A stretch of 53,206 nucleotides of DNA from Alphaproteobacteria bacterium (GTDB lineage: Bacteria > Pseudomonadota > Alphaproteobacteria > Bin95), in assembly GCA_022826185.1 (NCBI GenBank), contig JAJDVH010000115.1:1-53206 (forward strand). The letters run 5' to 3'. The position numbers and the translations under genes are program-made. Shown piece after piece: positions 26,126 through 50,042 of this stretch. The notes beneath the pieces are model-generated. The model saw only the letters and a program-made list of their open reading frames with translations, did not search any database and was not told the DNA's origin. Each line of letters begins with the position of its first letter. Position 1 is the stretch's first letter.

Positions 26126-27013
26126 TTATGCCGGCTGCGCGACGCGCGCCGGGTCGCTGGTGTCCAGCGTCGTGACGCGGCGCATCTCCCGGCGGTAAAC
26201 CGTGTCTTCGTAGGGGCAGGCGCGGTGCATGGTGGCGCGGTTGTCCCAGATGACGAAATCGCCGTTCCGCCAGGAGTGGCGATAGACAAGCTCGGGCCGG
26301 GTCGCATGCTCGGTGAGCTCGCGGAGGATCAGCCGGCCTTCCGGCACCGGCCGGTCGAGTATCCGCGAGGCGTGCGAGGCGAGATAGAGCGCGCGCCGCC
26401 CGGTCCGCGGGTTGGCCAGCACGAGCGGGTGGACCGCGCCCTTCAGCCGGTCGCGCTCCTCCTCGGAGAACTCGAAGCCGAGCGTCATGCGCGAATGCGC
26501 GATGGAATGATGCACGCGCAGGCCCTCCAGCCCCGCCTTCGTCTCCTCCGGCAGCGTGTCGTATGCGGTGCGCATGTCCGCGAACTCGGTGTCGGCCGGC
26601 ACCGGCGGCACCACGAGGGCGGCGAGCATGGAGTAACGGCCGCGCGGGTCCTGGAATGAGGCGTCCGTGTGCCAGAGCCGGTTGCCGAGGCTGTAGAGGC
26701 GCCGGCGGCTGTCCGCTTCCACGACCTGCCCGTCCGCTTCGACATTCGAGACATCGGAGAGCGCCTCGTCGCCGAAGCGGTTCTTCTGCAGAACGCTGAA
26801 GCCGGTCTTGCGGTGGAGCTCCCCGTCGAGCCGCGCGGCGAAATCGAGCTGCTCCTCGCCCGAGAACGCCTGGTCCCGGAAGACGAGCACGGCATGTTCG
26901 TCCATGGCCGCCCGGATGCGTTCGAGCCTCTCCTCGTCATGCACCGTGCGGAGGTCGACCGGACCCGCCTCGGCGGCGAAATGCGGGTGAAGCTTGCGGA
27001 ATTGAAGGGTCAT
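26126..27013 (-). CDS. TauD/TfdA-family Fe(II)/2-oxoglutarate dioxygenase
   Basis: Encodes a 295-residue dioxygenase. The iron ligands are visible as H115 and D117 in RLWHTDASF and H263 in DNRATMHRACPY; the Arg for 2-oxoglutarate lies in YRREMRRVT at about 275-279. The layout resembles TfdA and alkylsulfatase-type members more than taurine-specific TauD, so the substrate is open. The start overlaps the stop of the upstream sulfurtransferase gene as ATGA, which suggests a shared role, perhaps in organosulfur use, although that is inference. Confidence 0.88.
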   Translation of the reverse strand: MTLQFRKLHPHFAAEAGPVDLRTVHDEERLERIRAAMDEHAVLVFRDQAFSGEEQLDFAARLDGELHRKTGFSVLQKNRFGDEALSDVSNVEADGQVVEADSRRRLYSLGNRLWHTDASFQDPRGRYSMLAALVVPPVPADTEFADMRTAYDTLPEETKAGLEGLRVHHSIAHSRMTLGFEFSEEERDRLKGAVHPLVLANPRTGRRALYLASHASRILDRPVPEGRLILRELTEHATRPELVYRHSWRNGDFVIWDNRATMHRACPYEDTVYRREMRRVTTLDTSDPARVAQPA

Positions 27014-27945
27014 GACTCGCTCCGGCGCTGCGACGGCTGTTGCGGGCCCGTTTCTATCGGCAGGCCGGGGTCCGGGGCCCAGTCTCCCATCGAGCCGTCA
27101 TAGAGGGTGAGGTCGTCATAGCCGAGCTGGTGCATAAGGAACAGGCCGACAGTCGCTGAGATGCCGCCGCCGCAATAGGCGACGACATGGCGGTCCCGGC
27201 CGATCCCGGCTTCCTCGTGCAGCCGCCGCGCCTCGTCGAGCGCCACGAAGGCCCCGTTGGTCGGGTCGAGCAGGCTGGCCGCCGGCACGTTGAGGCTTCC
27301 GGGTATGCGGCCGGGCCTGCCATAGCGGCTCGGCCCCTCGCCCAGATGGAAGGCGGGCGCGAGCGCATTCACCATGACGGTGCCGGTGTCGTCCAGCCGG
27401 GAGAGCACATGGTCCCTGTCCACGAACCGGCCGGGCGCGGGCGCGGCGGTAAAGCGCGCCGGCGGGTATTGCGCGGGCTCGGCGGATACCGGGCGGCCCT
27501 CCGCCTTCCACTTCTCCCAGCCGCCGTCGAGCACGGCCGCCCCTTCGAAGCCGAAGGCGCGCATCATCCACCAGACCCGGGTCGCCCACATGATGCTGCC
27601 GGCCGAATAGAGCACCACGCGGGATGCGTCGCCGATGCCGAGCCCGCCCATCGCGTCCGCGAAGCGCTCGGCCGACGGCGCCATGAATTTAAGGCGCGTG
27701 CCGGGATCGGAAGCCGTTCCCTGCAGGTCCAGGAACACGGCGCCGGGGATATGCGCCTCGTCATATTCCGTCCGGCCAGGCACGACGCGGTAGGGGGCGT
27801 CGTCTCCGGGCTCCGCCGGCCTCAGCCATGTGGTGCAGTCCACGATGCGCAGCTCCGGCGCGCCCAGGCTCGCCTCCAGTTCACCGGTCTCGATCAGCGC
27901 CCCGGGCTCGCGCCATTGCGAAAGGTCGGTGCGGGCTTCGGTCAT
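27010..27945 (-). CDS. Two-domain rhodanese-type sulfurtransferase
   Basis: Encodes 311 residues from the ATG at 27945, which has AGGGGAG upstream; an earlier in-frame start at 27999 adds 18 unlikely residues. Two rhodanese domains are present. The first lacks the catalytic cysteine (YSAGSIMW), and the second has C258 in VVAYCGGGISATVGLF, the loop used for persulfide formation. This matches the SseA / thiosulfate or 3-mercaptopyruvate sulfurtransferase group. It heads a two-gene unit with the dioxygenase. Confidence 0.9.
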   Translation of the reverse strand: MTEARTDLSQWREPGALIETGELEASLGAPELRIVDCTTWLRPAEPGDDAPYRVVPGRTEYDEAHIPGAVFLDLQGTASDPGTRLKFMAPSAERFADAMGGLGIGDASRVVLYSAGSIMWATRVWWMMRAFGFEGAAVLDGGWEKWKAEGRPVSAEPAQYPPARFTAAPAPGRFVDRDHVLSRLDDTGTVMVNALAPAFHLGEGPSRYGRPGRIPGSLNVPAASLLDPTNGAFVALDEARRLHEEAGIGRDRHVVAYCGGGISATVGLFLMHQLGYDDLTLYDGSMGDWAPDPGLPIETGPQQPSQRRSES

Positions 27946-28014
27946 CGGCAGTCTCCCCTGGTGCGTCGGCAGCGGTCTCCGGAGGTGCATCATTACCACG
28001 AAGCGCCGGTCCGA

Positions 28015-28067: not shown

Positions 28068-28481
28068 ATGACCGACAATTGGGAATTTGCGCACAACAGG
28101 GCCGCGGAGGCCGTATGGACGGAGGGCCTGCGCGAGATCTTCGAATATCGCGACCTCGGCATCAAGGCGGCGACCAGGGGCGACTATGTCGCCCATATCG
28201 TCAAGGCGAACGGCAAGGAGATGAAGGACGAGGTGCAGCACTGGCATGTCCATGACTGCACCTTCCAGTTCGTCATGGTGCTGAACGGCTGGGCCGAGTT
28301 CGAATATGAGGGCCAGGGTGTCAGGCGCATCGAGAAGGGCGACTGCATCAACCAGCGCCCCGGCATCCCGCATCGCGAAATCGCCTGCTCGAAGGACTTC
28401 GAGGTGCTGGAAATCGTGGCGCCCGCTGACTTCGCGACCCGGATCGTGGAAGCGCCGGTCTCCGCGGAAGCCGCCGAGTAG
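28068..28481 (+). CDS. Cupin-domain protein
   Basis: Encodes a 137-residue single-domain cupin. The metal-site pattern HWHVHDCTFQFVMVLNGWAEF and the later GDCINQRPGIPHREIACS form the two cupin motifs with three His ligands possible. No signal peptide is present. It is transcribed divergently from the sulfurtransferase gene and converges with phnN seven bases away. The function of this cupin is unknown; similar small cupins sit near catabolic genes as regulators or isomerases. Confidence 0.85.
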   Translation: MTDNWEFAHNRAAEAVWTEGLREIFEYRDLGIKAATRGDYVAHIVKANGKEMKDEVQHWHVHDCTFQFVMVLNGWAEFEYEGQGVRRIEKGDCINQRPGIPHREIACSKDFEVLEIVAPADFATRIVEAPVSAEAAE

Positions 28482-28487
28482 GAGGCC

Positions 28488-29042
28488 TTATCCCGCAAAC
28501 GAGCGGAGCATTTCCACAAAGGCTTCGACTGCGGGTTCCAGCGGACCGTCATTGACGAGGGTGCGGACGTCCGGGCCCTCGATGCCGGCGGGCAATTGCC
28601 GGGCGAGGCGGCCGGCCCGGTCCTGCCGCGATTCCCGGCCCCTCTCGCCGAGGCGGCGCGCGAGCGTCTCCCGGCTTGCCGTGACCTGGATGACGCCGAC
28701 GCGCGCGAACCGGCTCCGGGCCTCGGCGACGACGGTTCGCGACACGTTGGCCACGACGATGCGTCCCTCCGCGACAAGGCCGCCGACGGTTCCGGGGAGC
28801 GCGTAGCCGAGGCCGTGCGCGCGCCAGACCAGGCTGAATTCGCCGGCCCGCTCGCGCGCGCGGAATTCCGCCTCCGTCAGGGCGATATGATCCTCATGCG
28901 GGTCCCCGGCGGGCCGCGTGATGTAGCGCCGCAGGAAGCAGAAACGCGCGTCCGGCCTCAATTCGGCTGCGGCCCGCCGGAGCAGCGTGTCCTTGCCGGC
29001 GCCGCTCGGGCCGACGGTGAGCACGAGGCAGCCGACGGTCAA
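28488..29042 (-). CDS. phnN: Ribose 1,5-bisphosphate phosphokinase PhnN
   Basis: Encodes a 184-residue P-loop kinase that turns ribose 1,5-bisphosphate into PRPP, the last step of the C-P lyase pathway. The P-loop GPSGAGKD is at residues 11-18, and RRYITRPAGDP and VVANVSRTVVAEA are typical. The start is TTG and overlaps the stop of the HD gene (TTGA), so it is the last gene of the phn operon by coupling. Confidence 0.9.
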   Translation of the reverse strand: MTVGCLVLTVGPSGAGKDTLLRRAAAELRPDARFCFLRRYITRPAGDPHEDHIALTEAEFRARERAGEFSLVWRAHGLGYALPGTVGGLVAEGRIVVANVSRTVVAEARSRFARVGVIQVTASRETLARRLGERGRESRQDRAGRLARQLPAGIEGPDVRTLVNDGPLEPAVEAFVEMLRSFAG

Positions 29043-29584
29043 TTCCGGAGCGCGGCTTCGATGCAGGGACGGTAGCGGTCGAGGCCCGGCGTCACGGCCC
29101 CGGGGTCCTTGGCCTGCTCGTCCCAGCGGCGCACGGCCACCGCCTCATGCGCATGGGGCCTTGCGATGAACGCCGCCGCCCCGGTCTCCGTGAACGGGCC
29201 GCCCTGCAGCTCCAGGCTCCGCACGGAAGCCGGCGACAGGGTGTCGAAATAGGCCGGATCGGTCGCGCAGAGCCAGCGCTTGGCATCGACATGCAGGCCC
29301 ACCGGCGCGGTCACGTCCTCCTCGAACCAGCGGGCCAGATATTTGCGCCCCAGCGTCTCGTGGCGGTCGTCGATGCCCCTCGCGGCGGCGTCTTCGCCGA
29401 GCTTGTGGATCAGGTGGCCGATATCGTGCAGCAGCGCCGCGACCACAAGCGAATCGGACGCGCCGGAGCATTCCGCAAGATGCGCGCATTGCAGCGCGTG
29501 CTGAAGCTGGCTGACGGCCTCGTCCCCATATTGCGCCGCGCCGCTCGTCTCCAGGATGTCCAGAATCCGGTCCGCTGCCGACAT
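29039..29584 (-). CDS. PhnZ-like HD-domain phosphonate oxygenase
   Basis: Encodes 181 residues from the ATG at 29584. It has the mixed-valence diiron ligand set of PhnZ at matching spacing: H29, H53 and D54 in ALLHDIGH, H75 and H98; Y19 and E22 in QYGDE match the lid pair described for PhnZ, and K102 follows H98. PhnZ cleaves 2-amino-1-hydroxyethylphosphonate oxidatively, and this family also occurs as the phosphonate-associated HDIG proteins. It lies between phnM and phnN in the same operon. No PhnY partner is adjacent. Confidence 0.8.
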   Translation of the reverse strand: MSAADRILDILETSGAAQYGDEAVSQLQHALQCAHLAECSGASDSLVVAALLHDIGHLIHKLGEDAAARGIDDRHETLGRKYLARWFEEDVTAPVGLHVDAKRWLCATDPAYFDTLSPASVRSLELQGGPFTETGAAAFIARPHAHEAVAVRRWDEQAKDPGAVTPGLDRYRPCIEAALRN

Positions 29585-29601: not shown

Positions 29602-30741
29602 CTAGACGACCCTCTGTCCTTCGCGCCATGTGCCGCGCACGACGGCGACGCCCTCGACTTCCCTGACGCGGACGAAGTCCGCCCGCTTGCCGGCGGCGAC
29701 CTCGCCCCGGTCCTCCAGCCCGATCGCCTCCGCCGGATTGGCCGTCGCCACCGCGGCCGCGCGCGGAAGCGTCATCTCCGGAATGCCGTCGCGCAGCAGG
29801 AACACGCCCTGGAGGGTGCTCGACGGCACATAGTCGGACGACAGCATGTCCAGCAATCCGGATGCCGCCAGGTCGAGGGCCGAGGCGTTGCCCGAATGGG
29901 AGCCGCCGAGCACCAGGTTGGGCGCGCCCATCAACACGGCGAGGCCGCGGCGCCGCGCCGCCTCGGCGGCTTCGAGGCGGGTGGGGAACTCGGCGATGGC
30001 GACGCCGTCGCGCACCGACTCCTCGATATGCTCGACCGTGGCGTCGTCATGGCTGGCGAGCGCGATATCCCGGCCCTCCAGCGCCTTGACGACCAGCGAC
30101 CTGTGGCGGGCGCTGAACTGCTGCTGGGCCTGCTGCTTGGCCTTCACATAGTCGTCCATCTCACCGTCGCTCAGGCCGTAGCGGCCCTGGTAATATTCGC
30201 GGTGCTTGCCGAGATCGACGAATTGCCTTTGTCCCGGCGTGTGGTCCATCAGCGAAACCAGCCGGACCAGGGGGTCGTCCATGAAGGGCGAGAGGCGCTC
30301 CATCAGGTCCGGGCTGGAGACCTCGCAGCGCAGGTGCAGGAAATGCTCCGCGCGCAGGACGCCCCATCGCATCGCCCTCTTCACGGCATCCGCCATGCCC
30401 GAGAGATGGTCCGGGCGGGCCTTGTCGCCGCCGCCGATCCGCACGGTATCGAGCGCCGTCGTGATCCCGGCGGCGGCGAGCTGGCTGTCATGGGCCAGCA
30501 CTGCGGCCTCCGCCGGCCACGCGACGCCGGGGCGCGGCGTGAACTGGCGCTCCAGATTGTCGGTGTGGAGCTCGACGAGGCCGGGCAGCAGGTAGTCGCC
30601 CTCGAAGTCGAGCGCCGCGCCGGCGCGGACGGAGCCTTCGCCGACCTCCGAGAACCGGCCGTCCGCCACCTCGACGGCGCCGGAAACGACCTCGTCCCGC
30701 ATGACGATCCGGGCGTTGGTGATCGTGAGGTCCGTCATCAT
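29602..30741 (-). CDS. phnM: Alpha-D-ribose 1-methylphosphonate 5-triphosphate diphosphatase PhnM
   Basis: Encodes a 379-residue amidohydrolase that removes pyrophosphate from the triphosphate product before C-P cleavage. The metal-binding start LLPGLVELHTDNLE is intact, followed by GITTALDTVRIGG, DHTPGQRQF and SHDDATVEHIEES. Two adjacent ATG codons at 30741 and 30738 are possible; the first overlaps the phnL stop as ATGA. An open frame continues upstream inside phnL without meaning. Confidence 0.93.
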   Translation of the reverse strand: MMTDLTITNARIVMRDEVVSGAVEVADGRFSEVGEGSVRAGAALDFEGDYLLPGLVELHTDNLERQFTPRPGVAWPAEAAVLAHDSQLAAAGITTALDTVRIGGGDKARPDHLSGMADAVKRAMRWGVLRAEHFLHLRCEVSSPDLMERLSPFMDDPLVRLVSLMDHTPGQRQFVDLGKHREYYQGRYGLSDGEMDDYVKAKQQAQQQFSARHRSLVVKALEGRDIALASHDDATVEHIEESVRDGVAIAEFPTRLEAAEAARRRGLAVLMGAPNLVLGGSHSGNASALDLAASGLLDMLSSDYVPSSTLQGVFLLRDGIPEMTLPRAAAVATANPAEAIGLEDRGEVAAGKRADFVRVREVEGVAVVRGTWREGQRVV

Positions 30742-31436
30742 GCGGCCTCCCTTGCGGCGGTGAGCGGAACGGTCCGCGTCGCCACCGCGTCCCGCACCTC
30801 GGCATCGTGGAAAATCCCGACAATCGCCGCGCCCCGCCCGGCGGCCTCCCGGATGAGCTCGAACACGACATCCCGGTTTTCCCTGTCGAGGGATGCGGTC
30901 GGCTCGTCCAGCAGCAGCACGGGATAGTCCGCGACGAAGACCCGCGCGAGATTGACCCGCTGCTGTTCGCCGCCGGAGAAGGTGGCCGGCGCCAGCCGGT
31001 GCAGCGCGGCCGGAATGTTGAGGCGCCGGAGCATGCGGCGCGCCGCTTTCGTTGCAGCTTCCGGGTCCGCGCCGCGCCCGCGAAGCGTCTCGGCGACCAC
31101 GTCCTCCGCGGCGACGCGCGGGACCGCGCGCAGGAACTGGCTGACATGGCCGACGGTTTCCCTGCGAACGGCGAGTATCCGGCGGGGATGCGTGGCCGCC
31201 ATGTCCACGGTCCCGTCCCGGTGCCGGACGAGGATGCGCCCCCGGTCGGCCCTGTAGTTGGCGTAGATGCAGCGGAGCACCGTGCTCTTGCCGATGCCGG
31301 AGGGACCGTGAAGCGCCACGCATTCGCCCGGCTCCACGACGAGGTCGAAGCCCGCCAGCACGGGAAGGCGCACGCCGCCCTGGTTGTGCAGGGTGAAGGA
31401 TTTCGCCAGGCCCCCGATTTCGATTGCCGCCGTCAA
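30738..31436 (-). CDS. phnL: C-P lyase complex ATP-binding protein PhnL
   Basis: Encodes a 232-residue ABC-type ATPase. Walker A is GPSGIGKST, the signature is FSGGEQQRVNLAR and Walker B is PVLLLDEPTASLD. Pairing with PhnK upstream and PhnM downstream identifies it as PhnL, which is needed with PhnGHI for forming the phosphonate-nucleotide bond rather than for transport. The start is TTG, 19 bases after the phnK stop. Confidence 0.9.
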   Translation of the reverse strand: MTAAIEIGGLAKSFTLHNQGGVRLPVLAGFDLVVEPGECVALHGPSGIGKSTVLRCIYANYRADRGRILVRHRDGTVDMAATHPRRILAVRRETVGHVSQFLRAVPRVAAEDVVAETLRGRGADPEAATKAARRMLRRLNIPAALHRLAPATFSGGEQQRVNLARVFVADYPVLLLDEPTASLDRENRDVVFELIREAAGRGAAIVGIFHDAEVRDAVATRTVPLTAAREAA

Positions 31437-31455: not shown

Positions 31456-32238
31456 TCACGGATGGATTACCGAAGACACGAGAAGCTGCGAATAGGGATG
31501 CTGCGGGTCGTCGAGGACCTGGTCGGTCAGGCCGGACTCCACGACCTCGCCGCGACGCATGACGAGCAGGCGGTGCGACAGCAGGCGCGCGACGGCCAGG
31601 TCGTGCGTGACGATGACGGCCGCCAGCCCGAGATCGGACACCAGGCCGCGCAGCAGGTCGAGCAGCCGCGCCTGGACGGACACGTCGAGCCCGCCCGTGG
31701 GTTCGTCCATGAACACGATGCGCGGCGCGGTCACGAGGTTGCGCGCAATCTGGAGCCGCTGCTGCATGCCGCCCGAAAAGGTGAAGGGCAGGTCGTCCAT
31801 GCGCCCCGTATCCATCTCGACCTTGTCGAGCCAGTCGGTGGCGGCCTGCCGGATATTGCCGTAATGGCGCGCGCCCACCGCCATCAGGCGCTCGCCGATA
31901 TTGGCGCCCGCGCTCACCCCCATGCGCAGCCCTTCGCGCGGGTTCTGGTGGACGAAGCCCCAGTCGGTGCGCATCAGCAGGCGCCGGGCCGGCTCGCTCA
32001 TGCGGTAGATGTCCGCCGGGCCGTCATGGCGCGTGGCGTATTCGACGGTTCCCGAAGTCGGCTCCAGGCGCGCGGAAATGCAGTTCAGCACCGTCGTCTT
32101 GCCGGAGCCGGATTCCCCGACAATGCCCAGAACCTCGCCCGGCCAGACCTCGAATGACACATTCCGGCAGCCGGGAATGCCCTCATAGTATTTCGTCACG
32201 CCCCGGGCGGAGAGGAGCGGCGGCGCCTCCGGCATCAT
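31456..32238 (-). CDS. phnK: C-P lyase complex ATP-binding protein PhnK
   Basis: Encodes about 260 residues with Walker A GESGSGKTT, signature FSGGMQQRLQIAR and Walker B RIVFMDEPTGGLD; it ends with an HPYSQLLVSS region typical of PhnK. PhnK binds the C-P lyase core complex. The start is one of two adjacent ATG codons at 32238 and 32235; the longer frame to 32283 seems less likely. It is separated from phnJ by 223 bases containing a long inverted repeat. Confidence 0.9.
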   Translation of the reverse strand: MMPEAPPLLSARGVTKYYEGIPGCRNVSFEVWPGEVLGIVGESGSGKTTVLNCISARLEPTSGTVEYATRHDGPADIYRMSEPARRLLMRTDWGFVHQNPREGLRMGVSAGANIGERLMAVGARHYGNIRQAATDWLDKVEMDTGRMDDLPFTFSGGMQQRLQIARNLVTAPRIVFMDEPTGGLDVSVQARLLDLLRGLVSDLGLAAVIVTHDLAVARLLSHRLLVMRRGEVVESGLTDQVLDDPQHPYSQLLVSSVIHP

Positions 32239-32298
32239 GCCGGTGTACCGGAGTTGAAGTGCGTTGCATTGCAGAACGGCCATCCCGGCGTCCCCGTC

Positions 32299-32386
32299 CC
32301 GTCATGCCCGGACTTGTTCCGGGCATCCATTTTCGCCGCCGCGCCTGCCTCGAGGGAGATGCCCGGAACAAGTCCGGGCATGACGG
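32299..32386. repeat. Perfect 29-base inverted repeat (REP-like) between phnJ and phnK
   Basis: Bases 32299-32327 (CCGTCATGCCCGGACTTGTT and so on to GCATC) are repeated exactly in reverse complement at 32358-32386, with a 30-base loop. Each arm is itself an imperfect palindrome, TGCCCGGA...TCCGGGCA. The same arms occur at 49957-49984 and 50015-50042. This is a typical dispersed alphaproteobacterial palindrome and in the phn mRNA would form a very stable hairpin. Confidence 0.85.
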
Positions 32387-32461: not shown

Positions 32462-33340
32462 TTACGCCCCGCTTCCTTCCGGGTCCCGCGTGGCGGGGCC
32501 GGTGTGGCCGGCTTCGCGGCGCCTGCCGCAATAATCGGTGTCCGAGCACACGAACATGCGCCCGCCCCGGTCGTCGGTGACGATCTCGTCGAGGAAACTC
32601 TCGCCCGACCCGCAAAGCGCGCACACATCCTCCCATTTCTGGACCTCGAACGGGTGGTCGTCGAAATCGAGGCTCCGCACCCCGGTATGCGGAGGGATGG
32701 CGTAGATGCGTTTCTCGCGGCCCGCGCCGAACAATTGCAGCGCCGGCGAGCGGTCCATCTTCGGATTGTCGAACTTCGGAATCGGCGAGGGCCGCATCAG
32801 GTAGCGGCCGTTCACCCGCACGGGATAGTCGTAGGAGGTGGCGATATGCCCGAACCGCGCGATGTCCTCATAGAGGCGGACATGCATCACGCCGTATTCC
32901 TCGAGCGCGTGCATCTTGCGCGTCTCCGCCTCCCTCGGCTCCAGCCAGCGCAGCGGCTCCGGGATGGGCACCTGGTAGACGAGGATCTGGCCGGGCCCGA
33001 GCGGCGTTTCCGGTATCCGGTGCCGGGTCTGGAGGATGGTGGCGTCCTCGGTGCGCTCCGTCGTCCCGACGCCGGCCGTCCGCGCGAAGAACTTGCGGAT
33101 GCTGACGGCGTTGACCGTATCGTCGGCGCCCTGGTCGATGACCTTGAGCGTGTCGTCGCGGCCGATAATGCTGGCCGTGACCTGGATGCCGCCGGTGCCC
33201 CAGCCGTAGGGAAGCGGCATCTCCCGGCTGCCGAACGGCACCTGGTAGCCCGGAATGGCGACGGCCTTGAGAATGGCCCGGCGGATCATCCGCTTGGTCT
33301 GCTCGTCCAGATAGGCGAAATTGTAGCCGTCCTCAGCCAT
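32462..33340 (-). CDS. phnJ: Alpha-D-ribose 1-methylphosphonate 5-phosphate C-P lyase PhnJ
   Basis: Encodes a 292-residue PhnJ, the radical-SAM-like enzyme that breaks the carbon-phosphorus bond. The cysteine motif CX2CX21CX5C is present exactly (C240, C243, C265, C271), at nearly the same positions as in E. coli (241, 244, 266, 272). It starts MAEDGYNFAYLDEQTKRMIR. The downstream gap to phnK carries the inverted repeat. Confidence 0.95.
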   Translation of the reverse strand: MAEDGYNFAYLDEQTKRMIRRAILKAVAIPGYQVPFGSREMPLPYGWGTGGIQVTASIIGRDDTLKVIDQGADDTVNAVSIRKFFARTAGVGTTERTEDATILQTRHRIPETPLGPGQILVYQVPIPEPLRWLEPREAETRKMHALEEYGVMHVRLYEDIARFGHIATSYDYPVRVNGRYLMRPSPIPKFDNPKMDRSPALQLFGAGREKRIYAIPPHTGVRSLDFDDHPFEVQKWEDVCALCGSGESFLDEIVTDDRGGRMFVCSDTDYCGRRREAGHTGPATRDPEGSGA

Positions 33341-33346
33341 CGGCGC

Positions 33347-34456
33347 CTATTCCGCCGCCTCGGCGGGCGGGTCTTCGAACTCCGCCCGGAGCTTCCGCAG
33401 CAATTCGAGCTCCGACTGGAAATCGACATAGTGCGGCAGCTTCAGATGCTGCACGAAGCCGGACGCCTCGACATTGTCGCTGTGGTAGAGGACGAACTCC
33501 TCGTCCTGCGCGGGAGAGGCCGGCGCCTCGTCGAGTTCGGCGCATCTGAGCGCGCGGTCCACCAGCGCCATCGACATGGCCTTGCGCTCCTGGTGGCCGA
33601 AGACGAGCCCGTAGCCGCGCGTGAACTGGGGCGGCGTGCGGGCATTGCCCGTGAACTGGTTGACCATCTGCACCTCGGTCACCTCGATCTCGCCGATCTC
33701 GATCGCGAAGCCGAGCTCCTCGGGCACGATCTCGACCGCGACCGCGCCGTAGCGTATTTCGCCGGCGAAGGGGTGGTTGTTCGAGAAGCCGCGCTGGGTC
33801 GAATAGCCGAGCGCCAGCAGGAAGCCCTCGTCGCCGCGCGCGAGCGCCTGGAGCCGGGCGTCGCGGTCCGCCGGGAAGCGGAGCGGCTCCCTCGTGATGT
33901 CCGCCGGCGGCGCCCCGCCGGTTTCCGGCGCGCTCTCCTCCTCGATCAGGCCTTCGCGGCCCAGAATGTCCACGACGCGGGGGACCGGCTCCTCGGCCGC
34001 CGGCCCGCGTTCCGCCTCCGGCGCGGGGTTCCGGTCCCGGCTCCCGCCCTCATCGGCGAGGCGGAAATCCAGCAGGCGGTGGGTGTAGTCGTAGGTCGGA
34101 CCCAGGATCTGGCCGCCCGGAAGGTCCTTGAAGGTCGCGGAAATCCGCCGCCGGATCGCCATGCGCCCCGTATCGACGGGCTCGCTGTTGCCGAGGCGGG
34201 GCAGGGTGGTGCGGTAGGCGCGCAGCAGGAAGACGGCCTCGATCAGGTCTCCCTGCGCCTGCTTGATCGCGAGCGCCGCAAGCTCCCTGTCGTGCAGCGA
34301 GCCCTCGGCCATCACCCGGTCCACGGCAAGCCCGAGCTGCTCCGCTATCTGGCGCGTCGAGAGCTCGGGGACGCCGGGGTCGCCGCGCCGGGCCGAGTCC
34401 AGAAGCCGGTGCGACGCTTCGATGGCCTTCTCGCCGCCCTTGACCGCTACATACAT
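33347..34456 (-). CDS. phnI: C-P lyase subunit PhnI
   Basis: Encodes a 369-residue PhnI, the nucleosidase-type subunit of the C-P lyase core that helps attach phosphonate to ribose. It starts MYVAVKGGEKAIEASHRLLD, as PhnI proteins do, and contains SHDREL-like and GYSTQRGFSNNHPFAGEIRY sequence. Spacing to phnH is one base and to phnJ six bases. Confidence 0.94.
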   Translation of the reverse strand: MYVAVKGGEKAIEASHRLLDSARRGDPGVPELSTRQIAEQLGLAVDRVMAEGSLHDRELAALAIKQAQGDLIEAVFLLRAYRTTLPRLGNSEPVDTGRMAIRRRISATFKDLPGGQILGPTYDYTHRLLDFRLADEGGSRDRNPAPEAERGPAAEEPVPRVVDILGREGLIEEESAPETGGAPPADITREPLRFPADRDARLQALARGDEGFLLALGYSTQRGFSNNHPFAGEIRYGAVAVEIVPEELGFAIEIGEIEVTEVQMVNQFTGNARTPPQFTRGYGLVFGHQERKAMSMALVDRALRCAELDEAPASPAQDEEFVLYHSDNVEASGFVQHLKLPHYVDFQSELELLRKLRAEFEDPPAEAAE

Positions 34457-34457
34457 C

Positions 34458-35063
34458 TCAAAGCCCTATCTGCGTCGAGCGCGGCACGGCCGCCAGGCTG
34501 GCCCCGGAGGCGAAGAGCAGGTCGACGCCCAGCGGGAACAGGCGTTCCAGGTCGCGCCGCTGCTTCCAGAAATCTTCCGCGAGGCCGGCCGCGCGGAACG
34601 CGCGGCGGTCCTCGATGCCGGGTCCTCTGAGGTCGACCGCGTCCCCCGCTTCGAGGGATGCGGCCTGGACGACCAGGGTCGCGCTTTCGTCGGGATAGGC
34701 TTCCGAGCCCAGCCGGAAGCCGGCCAGGGGCGGCGCCGCCTCGGGCCGGGCCAGCACGGCGAAGCGCGCGCCGTCCGCCTCGCCCGCCAGCGGGCAGCCG
34801 CAATGGAACCGGAGCCAGGCCCGCGTGTCGTCATTGTCCGCCGCGGCGTCCAGCCAGACGGGCGTCTCGAAGTCGAGCAGGGTCAGGCAGACCGCGGCGG
34901 TCGCCGGGTCGAGCGGCGCCGGCGGGGTCAGGGCGATCGCGATGTCCTGCACGGCGCCCGGCTCCGACATCGCCGCCAGCACGCGGCGGAACACCTGCTG
35001 GCTATCCGGGACCGGCGCGGCGAAGCCCGGTCGAAGCGCCGGTCCGTTGAGCGTCGCCGCCAT
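34458..35063 (-). CDS. phnH: C-P lyase subunit PhnH
   Basis: Encodes 201 residues from the ATG at 35063. PhnH is a structural subunit of the C-P lyase core. The pattern QQVFRRVLAAMSEPGAVQDI, LDFETPVWLD and GPGIEDRR is typical. The long open frame upstream is a shadow in phnG. Five bases separate it from phnG. Confidence 0.92.
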   Translation of the reverse strand: MAATLNGPALRPGFAAPVPDSQQVFRRVLAAMSEPGAVQDIAIALTPPAPLDPATAAVCLTLLDFETPVWLDAAADNDDTRAWLRFHCGCPLAGEADGARFAVLARPEAAPPLAGFRLGSEAYPDESATLVVQAASLEAGDAVDLRGPGIEDRRAFRAAGLAEDFWKQRRDLERLFPLGVDLLFASGASLAAVPRSTQIGL

Positions 35064-35068
35064 CGGTG

Positions 35069-35536
35069 TCAGTCCTGCCCGCGGACCATGGTGAAGAACT
35101 CGACCCGCGAGCGGTCCGCGTTCGCGCGCTCCCGTTCGCGCCGGGCGCGCTGGGAGGCTTCCAGCGGCGCAATCACCGTCTCTTCCAGCCTCTCCCTGAG
35201 GCCGGGCTGCTGGAGCAGCGCGTCGAACGCCGCCGCCAGCTCGGCATGGCGCGCGCTGCGCCCCGCCACATAGGCGATGCCGACCTGGCCGCCTTCCAGC
35301 TGGACGGCGCAGCGCGTCGCGCTCATCTCGCCCATGTTGAAGGCGCTTCCGGTGCCGCCCGCGCGGCCGCGAACCATGACGAGGCCCGTCTCCGGCGGCC
35401 GCAGGCAGCGGTATCCGGGCCTGTCGGCGAGACCGTCCCAGGCGGCCTCCAGCGCGCCGTCCTCCGCCTTGGCCAGAACGGCCATCCATCGCTGCCGCGC
35501 CGCAGTCTCAGGGTCTGTCCCGGTCGAGGTCGGCAT
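35069..35536 (-). CDS. phnG: C-P lyase subunit PhnG
   Basis: Encodes 154 residues from the ATG at 35536, which suits the family start (TAARQRWMAVLAKAED); an earlier ATG at 35569 adds 11 residues. Conserved parts are PETGLVMVRGRAGGTGSAFN and GEMSATRCAVQLEGG, GIAYVAGRSARHAELAA. PhnG is a small subunit of the C-P lyase core. It is the first structural gene of the operon, 162 bases after phnF. Confidence 0.92.
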   Translation of the reverse strand: MPTSTGTDPETAARQRWMAVLAKAEDGALEAAWDGLADRPGYRCLRPPETGLVMVRGRAGGTGSAFNMGEMSATRCAVQLEGGQVGIAYVAGRSARHAELAAAFDALLQQPGLRERLEETVIAPLEASQRARRERERANADRSRVEFFTMVRGQD

Positions 35537-35698
35537 GTCGCCTGCCGCTCCAGCTTGCCCGGCGCCCATGAGAGCAAAGCCGGGTGACGCTTTTGTGACC
35601 CGGTTAGCCGGGGCCTTCCCGCCTTGTCAAGGCGAGGGCGGCGTTCTGCTGCCGGACGGCGGCGGCGCAGATGCCCCTCCGCCATGTCCTGACCGTCT

Positions 35699-49956: not shown

Positions 49957-50042
49957 CGTCATGCCCGGACTTGTTCCGGGCATCTCCATCGGGGCCATTG
50001 CGGTGGCGGAAATGGATGCCCGGAACAAGTCCGGGCATGACG
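49957..50042. repeat. Inverted repeat pair with the same arms as the phnJ-phnK repeat
   Basis: 28-base arms at 49957-49984 (CGTCATGCCCGGACTTGTTC onward) and 50015-50042 are exact reverse complements, with a 30-base loop of different sequence from that at 32328-32357. The arms are identical to those between phnJ and phnK, so only the stems are conserved. Confidence 0.85.

Follow-up and report, generated by a model that had tools for sequence, protein, structure and literature searches.

The DNA analysed here, referred to throughout as the window, is a stretch of 53,206 nucleotides from an alphaproteobacterial contig, and its minus strand carries a C–P lyase operon in the order phnG-H-I-J-K-L-M-HD-phnN, where HD denotes a gene for an HD-domain protein (Table 1). 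The products of phnH, phnK, phnL, phnM and phnN exceeded the curated NCBIfam cut-offs and those of phnG, phnI and phnJ exceeded the Pfam ones; the phnH ORF is open to position 35489, with the PhnH domain occupying residues 155–340 of that ORF. A first-pass annotation had placed the HD gene between phnM and phnN and coupled it to phnN, and the layout agrees: 17 bp separate the phnM stop from the HD start, and the HD stop and the TTG start of phnN share four nucleotides (TTGA), which makes joint transcription of phnM, HD and phnN likely, together with translational coupling between HD and phnN. The HD gene, which is the sole TIGR03276 match in the window's genome, starts with an ATG preceded by a GGGGAG stretch that, judged by eye, resembles a Shine–Dalgarno sequence, and the protein is encoded on the minus strand; a plus-strand reading of the same interval does not give it. 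A Pho-box pattern matched the window four times, with three mismatches each, versus 1.38 matches expected, and none of the four lay upstream of phnG.

The gap between phnJ and phnK contains a perfect 29-nt inverted repeat with a 30-nt loop (window positions 32299–32386). A 21-nt core of this repeat recurs in both arms at 49962–50037, and genome-wide counts of a 23-nt core were 79 in forward and 75 in reverse orientation, compared with none for the backwards-read control. The repeat is thus a dispersed palindromic element of ~80 genome copies, one of which lies inside the phn operon.

Table 1. Genes of the phn operon and its neighbours in the window
Feature	Position	Strand	Evidence and remarks
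TauD-family 2-oxoglutarate dioxygenase gene (neighbour)	26126..27013	minus	no TmpA-model match
rhodanese / mercaptopyruvate-sulfurtransferase-like gene (neighbour)	27010..27999	minus	4-nt overlap with dioxygenase start
cupin gene (neighbour)	28068..28481	plus	PF07883; separates phn operon from next minus-strand unit
phnN	28488..29042	minus	TIGR02322, 189.1 bits (cut-off 156); overlaps HD stop by 4 nt
TIGR03276 HD-domain oxygenase gene (predicted, PhnZ/TmpB-like), 181 aa	29039..29584	minus	NCBIfam, PDB sequence and fold matches
phnM	29602..30738	minus	TIGR02318, 486 bits (cut-off 390.6)
phnL	30738..31436	minus	TIGR02324, 310.6 bits (cut-off 256.3)
phnK (start provisional; domain at residues 8–259 of the stretch)	31456..32241	minus	TIGR02323, 394.9 bits (cut-off 302.9)
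phnJ	32462..33340	minus	PF06007, E 2.1e-150; no NCBIfam match
phnI	33347..34456	minus	PF05861, E 2e-166; no NCBIfam match
phnH (start approximate)	34458..35070	minus	TIGR03292, 194.3 bits (cut-off 91.5)
phnG	35069..35569	minus	PF06754, E 5.4e-54

The HD protein matched the NCBIfam model TIGR03276 with 234.6 bits, above the curated cut-off of 214.6 (E 5.4e-70). It scored below the cut-off of 300 for both the TmpB equivalog (NF049941, 170.2 bits) and the hydroxymethylphosphonate (HMP) dioxygenase PhnZ1 equivalog (NF052439, 160.7 bits), and because both of these models failed, a different substrate or chemistry is possible for the protein. When PDB sequences were searched with phmmer, the matches at E < 0.1 comprised three PhnZ entries and one TmpB entry (E 7.6e-32 to 3.5e-31, the lower value being for PhnZ), with the next matches at E 0.13 and 0.25. 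The predicted fold gave the same picture. An AlphaFold model (mean pLDDT 90.9), computed from the window protein along with 14 relatives, had ten Foldseek matches in the PDB at E ≤ 0.001, all of them PhnZ or TmpB chains with TM scores of 0.85–0.90 on the query, and the next match was at E 0.34. Since both searches returned PhnZ and TmpB alone as significant matches, with no phosphodiesterase-type HD protein among them, assignment to that type is unlikely.

Alignment to PhnZ placed every candidate active-site residue at its counterpart. The first-pass annotation had listed H29, H53, D54, H75 and H98, together with the Y19/E22 pair, at the spacing of PhnZ, and these aligned with H34, H58, D59, H80 and H104 and with Y24 and E27, respectively. 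The five residues had been described as the full ligand set; all five stand, but a sixth ligand, D155 (D161 in PhnZ), had been omitted and is present too, such that no ligand is lost. The substrate loop reads Y19-G-D-E22. Further aligned positions are K102, S120 and R152 (108, 126 and 158 in PhnZ numbering), whose counterparts are presumably pocket residues in the PhnZ structures, and Q127 is also present. The window protein therefore has both the H..HD..H..H..D ligand set and the YxxE loop. These two features are given as marks of phosphonate HD oxygenases in passages of PMC8177086, which also describe YxxE as absent from MIOX.

Across the 30 C–P-lyase-linked rows of the alignment (the window plus 29 loci), Y19, H29, H53, D54, H75, H98, K102, S120, Q127, R152 and D155 were kept in all 30, and E22 was kept in 25, with Ser in four and Gln in one. 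The ligand set plus Y19 was broken in 7 of the 105 aligned rows (the window, PhnZ, TmpB and 102 loci), none of which was C–P-lyase-linked. Four linked proteins (L048, L063, L066 and L077) have YxxS in place of YxxE, and the genes for the first three of these sit upstream of phnG; the YxxS proteins may be a subtype that acts on substrates lacking an amino group. A separate TIGR03276-like group (L100, L101 and L102) has a Cys aligned at the last ligand Asp and sits on a long branch.

The arrangement in the window is no one-off but a recurrent accessory of C–P lyase operons in Alphaproteobacteria. We surveyed 385 genomes of this class, which contained 72 phnM loci above the PhnM cut-off (in 67 genomes) and 100 TIGR03276 places (in 87 genomes), counting places whose best piece reached at least 136 bits, excluding weaker matches and treating two pieces on G099:C270 as a single place. 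The HD gene immediately followed phnM, in the same orientation and no more than 700 bp away, at 18 of the 72 phnM loci, in 18 genomes spanning 13 family labels, a count that leaves out two contig-edge cases (G007:C19 and G004:C58). At the level of predicted gene content, the earlier suggestion that radical and oxidative routes of C–P cleavage share one operon is supported, and the pairing recurs. In three further genomes the HD gene preceded phnG in the same orientation, in two it was close to phnM and oppositely oriented, and in two (L056 and L130) it came after phnL with no adjoining phnM. In these last two loci the HD gene is followed by genes of one cluster (L056:8109-8903 and L130:9579-10412), the L056 member of which belongs to the inositol-monophosphatase family. 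A counted HD gene was present in 51 of the 67 genomes with phnM versus 36 of the 318 without, although, with genomes that share kinship, the Fisher p (4.5e-26) makes the association look stronger than it is. The other 16 of the 67 C–P lyase genomes had no counted HD gene, and the protein is therefore at most accessory to C–P lyase. The codon-scored gene caller that we used on the loci missed HD in 5 of 103.

A quick tree of the 105 rows placed the window protein in a group of 27 (SH-aLRT 94), composed of 21 C–P-lyase-linked rows, five others and PhnZ, the last on a long branch (2.1) that makes its placement unstable. Most TmpA-linked rows (20 of 25) lay in another part of the tree, with TmpB among them, and the remaining five adjoined the window's group. 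Nine C–P-lyase-linked rows lay outside that group. The C–P-lyase label was clustered on the tree, requiring 11 changes compared with a mean of 26.1 in shuffles, and the linkage was probably gained or lost more than once. A single clade of 19 C–P-lyase-linked rows, chosen after the first tree had been viewed and tested after removing 22 long, odd or near-duplicate rows, was not rejected (p-AU 0.906) and had a likelihood better by 34 than that of the free search. The AU test rejected a constraint that grouped the window row with 21 TmpA-linked/TmpB rows (p 0.0002), a result to which we give no weight because the TmpA-linked rows do not form one clade in the free tree (seven changes). Together, the family model, the full ligand set with its YxxE loop, the tree and the predicted fold bear out the original call of a PhnZ-like oxygenase, and assignment to the PhnZ/TmpB enzyme class is well supported at the level of sequence and predicted structure.

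Passages of PMC8177086 describe PhnZ and TmpB as partnered with 2-oxoglutarate hydroxylases, and the HD protein might likewise make up a complete oxidative pathway together with a hydroxylase encoded elsewhere, be it a PhyH paralogue, a gamma-butyrobetaine-dioxygenase-like protein or the TauD-family dioxygenase downstream of the operon. The last of these had been singled out as a 2-oxoglutarate dioxygenase gene 2 kb downstream on the same strand, and it was indeed found 2.03 kb past the HD gene. Its assignment to the TfdA/TauD branch also held insofar as the protein is TauD-family, but this branch is a weak argument against a partnership, given that TmpB's partner TmpA is itself TauD-family (PF02668). 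Other evidence leaves the proposed link unsupported. The gene lies outside the operon and, because the plus-strand cupin gene and the rhodanese gene intervene, is probably not transcribed with the phn genes; its product matched 2,4-D dioxygenase-like structures and had no match to the TmpA model at E ≤ 1e-3. Of the 29 C–P-lyase-linked HD loci, three had a dioxygenase of this type, all of them in the window's genus, and L123 had one of 32% identity, encoded on the other strand. Given this layout, the rarity of such genes at the other linked loci and the lack of a TmpA-model match, the TauD-family gene is an unlikely partner. The set of rhodanese, TauD-family and plus-strand cupin genes recurs at L105, L106 and L107, three other loci from the genus, and the rhodanese and TauD-family genes are possibly a small unit of their own.

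A wider search for a neighbouring hydroxylase gave a similar outcome. With one TmpA, nine PhyH proteins from the window's own genome and the gamma-butyrobetaine-dioxygenase-like protein as tblastn queries (E ≤ 1e-6, >45 bits), the surroundings of HD at the 29 linked loci, taken out to 9 kb or to where the contig ended and without counting the window, yielded no relative of TmpA or PhyH. We also assigned Pfam families to 106 other proteins neighbouring HD (180–420 aa, from 27 loci, after excluding established phn clusters as well as the cupin, rhodanese and TauD clusters of the window type). Neither TauD nor PhyH was among the 25 families listed of the 127 found, and each therefore had at most two members among these neighbours. 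In 25 rows from the class, HD was directly preceded by a same-strand TmpA-cluster gene, and the one cluster member that we scanned was TmpA (NF049936, 542.8 bits; cut-off 400). In a named genome collection, the window protein retrieved 40 loci, of which 25 had a TmpA relative and six had C–P lyase genes (five from the window's genus and one from a Burkholderiales MAG).

In favor of a distant hydroxylase, the window's genome (4.5 Mb) has 23 PhyH matches (on C40, C144, C173, C207 and other contigs), the one gamma-butyrobetaine-dioxygenase-like gene (on C93) and a best TmpA-model match of 259.9 bits, below the cut-off of 400. However, the 19 PhyH proteins that we scanned of the 23 (the set without both copies on C276, the second of those on C207 and a C140 fragment) matched no phosphonate-hydroxylase model at E ≤ 1e-12 in NCBIfam, which may hold no PhnY* model, and met no curated NCBIfam cut-off at all. 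Weighing these genes against the hydroxylase-poor neighbourhoods of the linked loci, we consider a complete pathway with a remote hydroxylase rather unlikely.

The position between phnM and phnN raises another possibility, namely that the HD protein is a phosphohydrolase acting between the PhnJ and PhnN steps. In E. coli the opening of 5-phosphoribosyl 1,2-cyclic phosphate, which precedes PhnN, is the job of PhnP. We take DUF1045 (TIGR03223/PF06299) to be a 2H-phosphodiesterase that presumably opens the same cyclic phosphate as an alternative to PhnP. A 2H-phosphodiesterase gene in operons lacking phnP is proposed for the PhnP step in passages of PMC10574752. The window's operon showed neither a PhnP nor a DUF1045 gene, PhnP was not found in the window's genome (the one genome in which it was sought; best match 38.4 bits, cut-off 272.25), and the DUF1045 match of that genome, located outside the window, reached 207.8 bits, under the curated cut-off of 248.95. 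Against these points, DUF1045 was found at 141 bits or more in all 67 phnM genomes (40 above its own cut-off), including all 18 with HD next to phnM (15 above the cut-off), and in the fetched stretch of 15 of the 29 C–P-lyase-linked HD loci. An HD protein standing in for PhnP or DUF1045 where both are missing does not fit the presence of DUF1045 in 18 of 18 phnM-HD genomes, so HD need not replace DUF1045 and is probably not needed for opening the cyclic phosphate. Considering also the YxxE loop and the matches to PhnZ and TmpB alone, we regard a PhnP-like role as highly improbable.

We therefore favor a reading in which the window protein is probably a PhnZ/TmpB-type oxygenase with a mixed-valent diiron (Fe2+/Fe3+) site, an orphan member of a phnM-linked subfamily that would act on ready-made (R)-1-hydroxy(amino)phosphonates. 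The substrate would most likely bind at K102, S120 and R152 and at the diiron site, whereupon the Y19..E22 loop would move and open the O2 site, and the C–P bond would be split to yield phosphate and a carboxylate (glycine, in the case of 2-amino-1-hydroxyethylphosphonate). Because no dedicated hydroxylase was found nearby, the 1-hydroxyphosphonates would arrive ready made, at a time when C–P lyase is also being produced, and because E22 is kept, they would probably bear an amino group. More tentatively, the C–P-lyase-linked HD proteins may be a distinct hydroxylase-free subfamily that handles 1-hydroxyphosphonates either unusable by the lyase or generated within the pathway, such that one operon would provide radical and oxidative cleavage for complementary substrates.

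A substrate-specific gene inside a C–P lyase operon is already in print, and in the passages of literature that we searched, which included few subscription journals, we found neither the phnM-HD-phnN order nor an assay of such a protein. TIGR03276 proteins that lack an evident partner hydroxylase are an acknowledged puzzle, with passages of PMC11203657 calling the function of those near phosphonatase genes a conundrum. The linkage to phnM (18 genomes, 13 families) restricts the candidates to substrates imported and encountered alongside those of C–P lyase. It also carries a caution for surveys, in that not every phnZ-like gene marks a 2-aminoethylphosphonate pathway, a point already argued in passages of PMC8316502 for phnZ subclades, of which there are several, with the original alone specific for 2-aminoethylphosphonate.

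Of the characterized enzymes, the HMP dioxygenase PhnZ1 of the methylphosphonate oxidation pathway matches the window protein over nearly its whole length, but at a score well short of its equivalog cut-off. TmpB (6NPA), which is paired with TmpA, shares the fold, the ligands and the loop, yet the window protein misses the TmpB equivalog cut-off, the sole dioxygenase gene nearby lacks a TmpA-model match, and TmpB sits among TmpA-linked rows of the tree, apart from the window row. PhnZ (4MLM, 4MLN and 4N71), a 2-amino-1-hydroxyethylphosphonate dioxygenase, has the same fold, the six ligands, YxxE and the Lys, Ser and Arg positions; it differs in being 35–38% identical to the window protein, beside whose C–P-lyase-linked relatives no PhnY*-type gene was detected. 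The remaining comparison is with the TIGR03276 protein PhnHD. Passages of PMC11203657 report that Achromobacter PhnHD near phosphonatase operons keeps all conserved residues and that pseudomonads with TIGR03276 proteins and PhnWX have no PhnY*. Although the window protein is encoded within a C–P lyase operon, between phnM and phnN and not beside phnX, it resembles PhnHD in exceeding the curated cut-off of the family, in keeping all of the ligands and in having phosphonate genes adjoining it.
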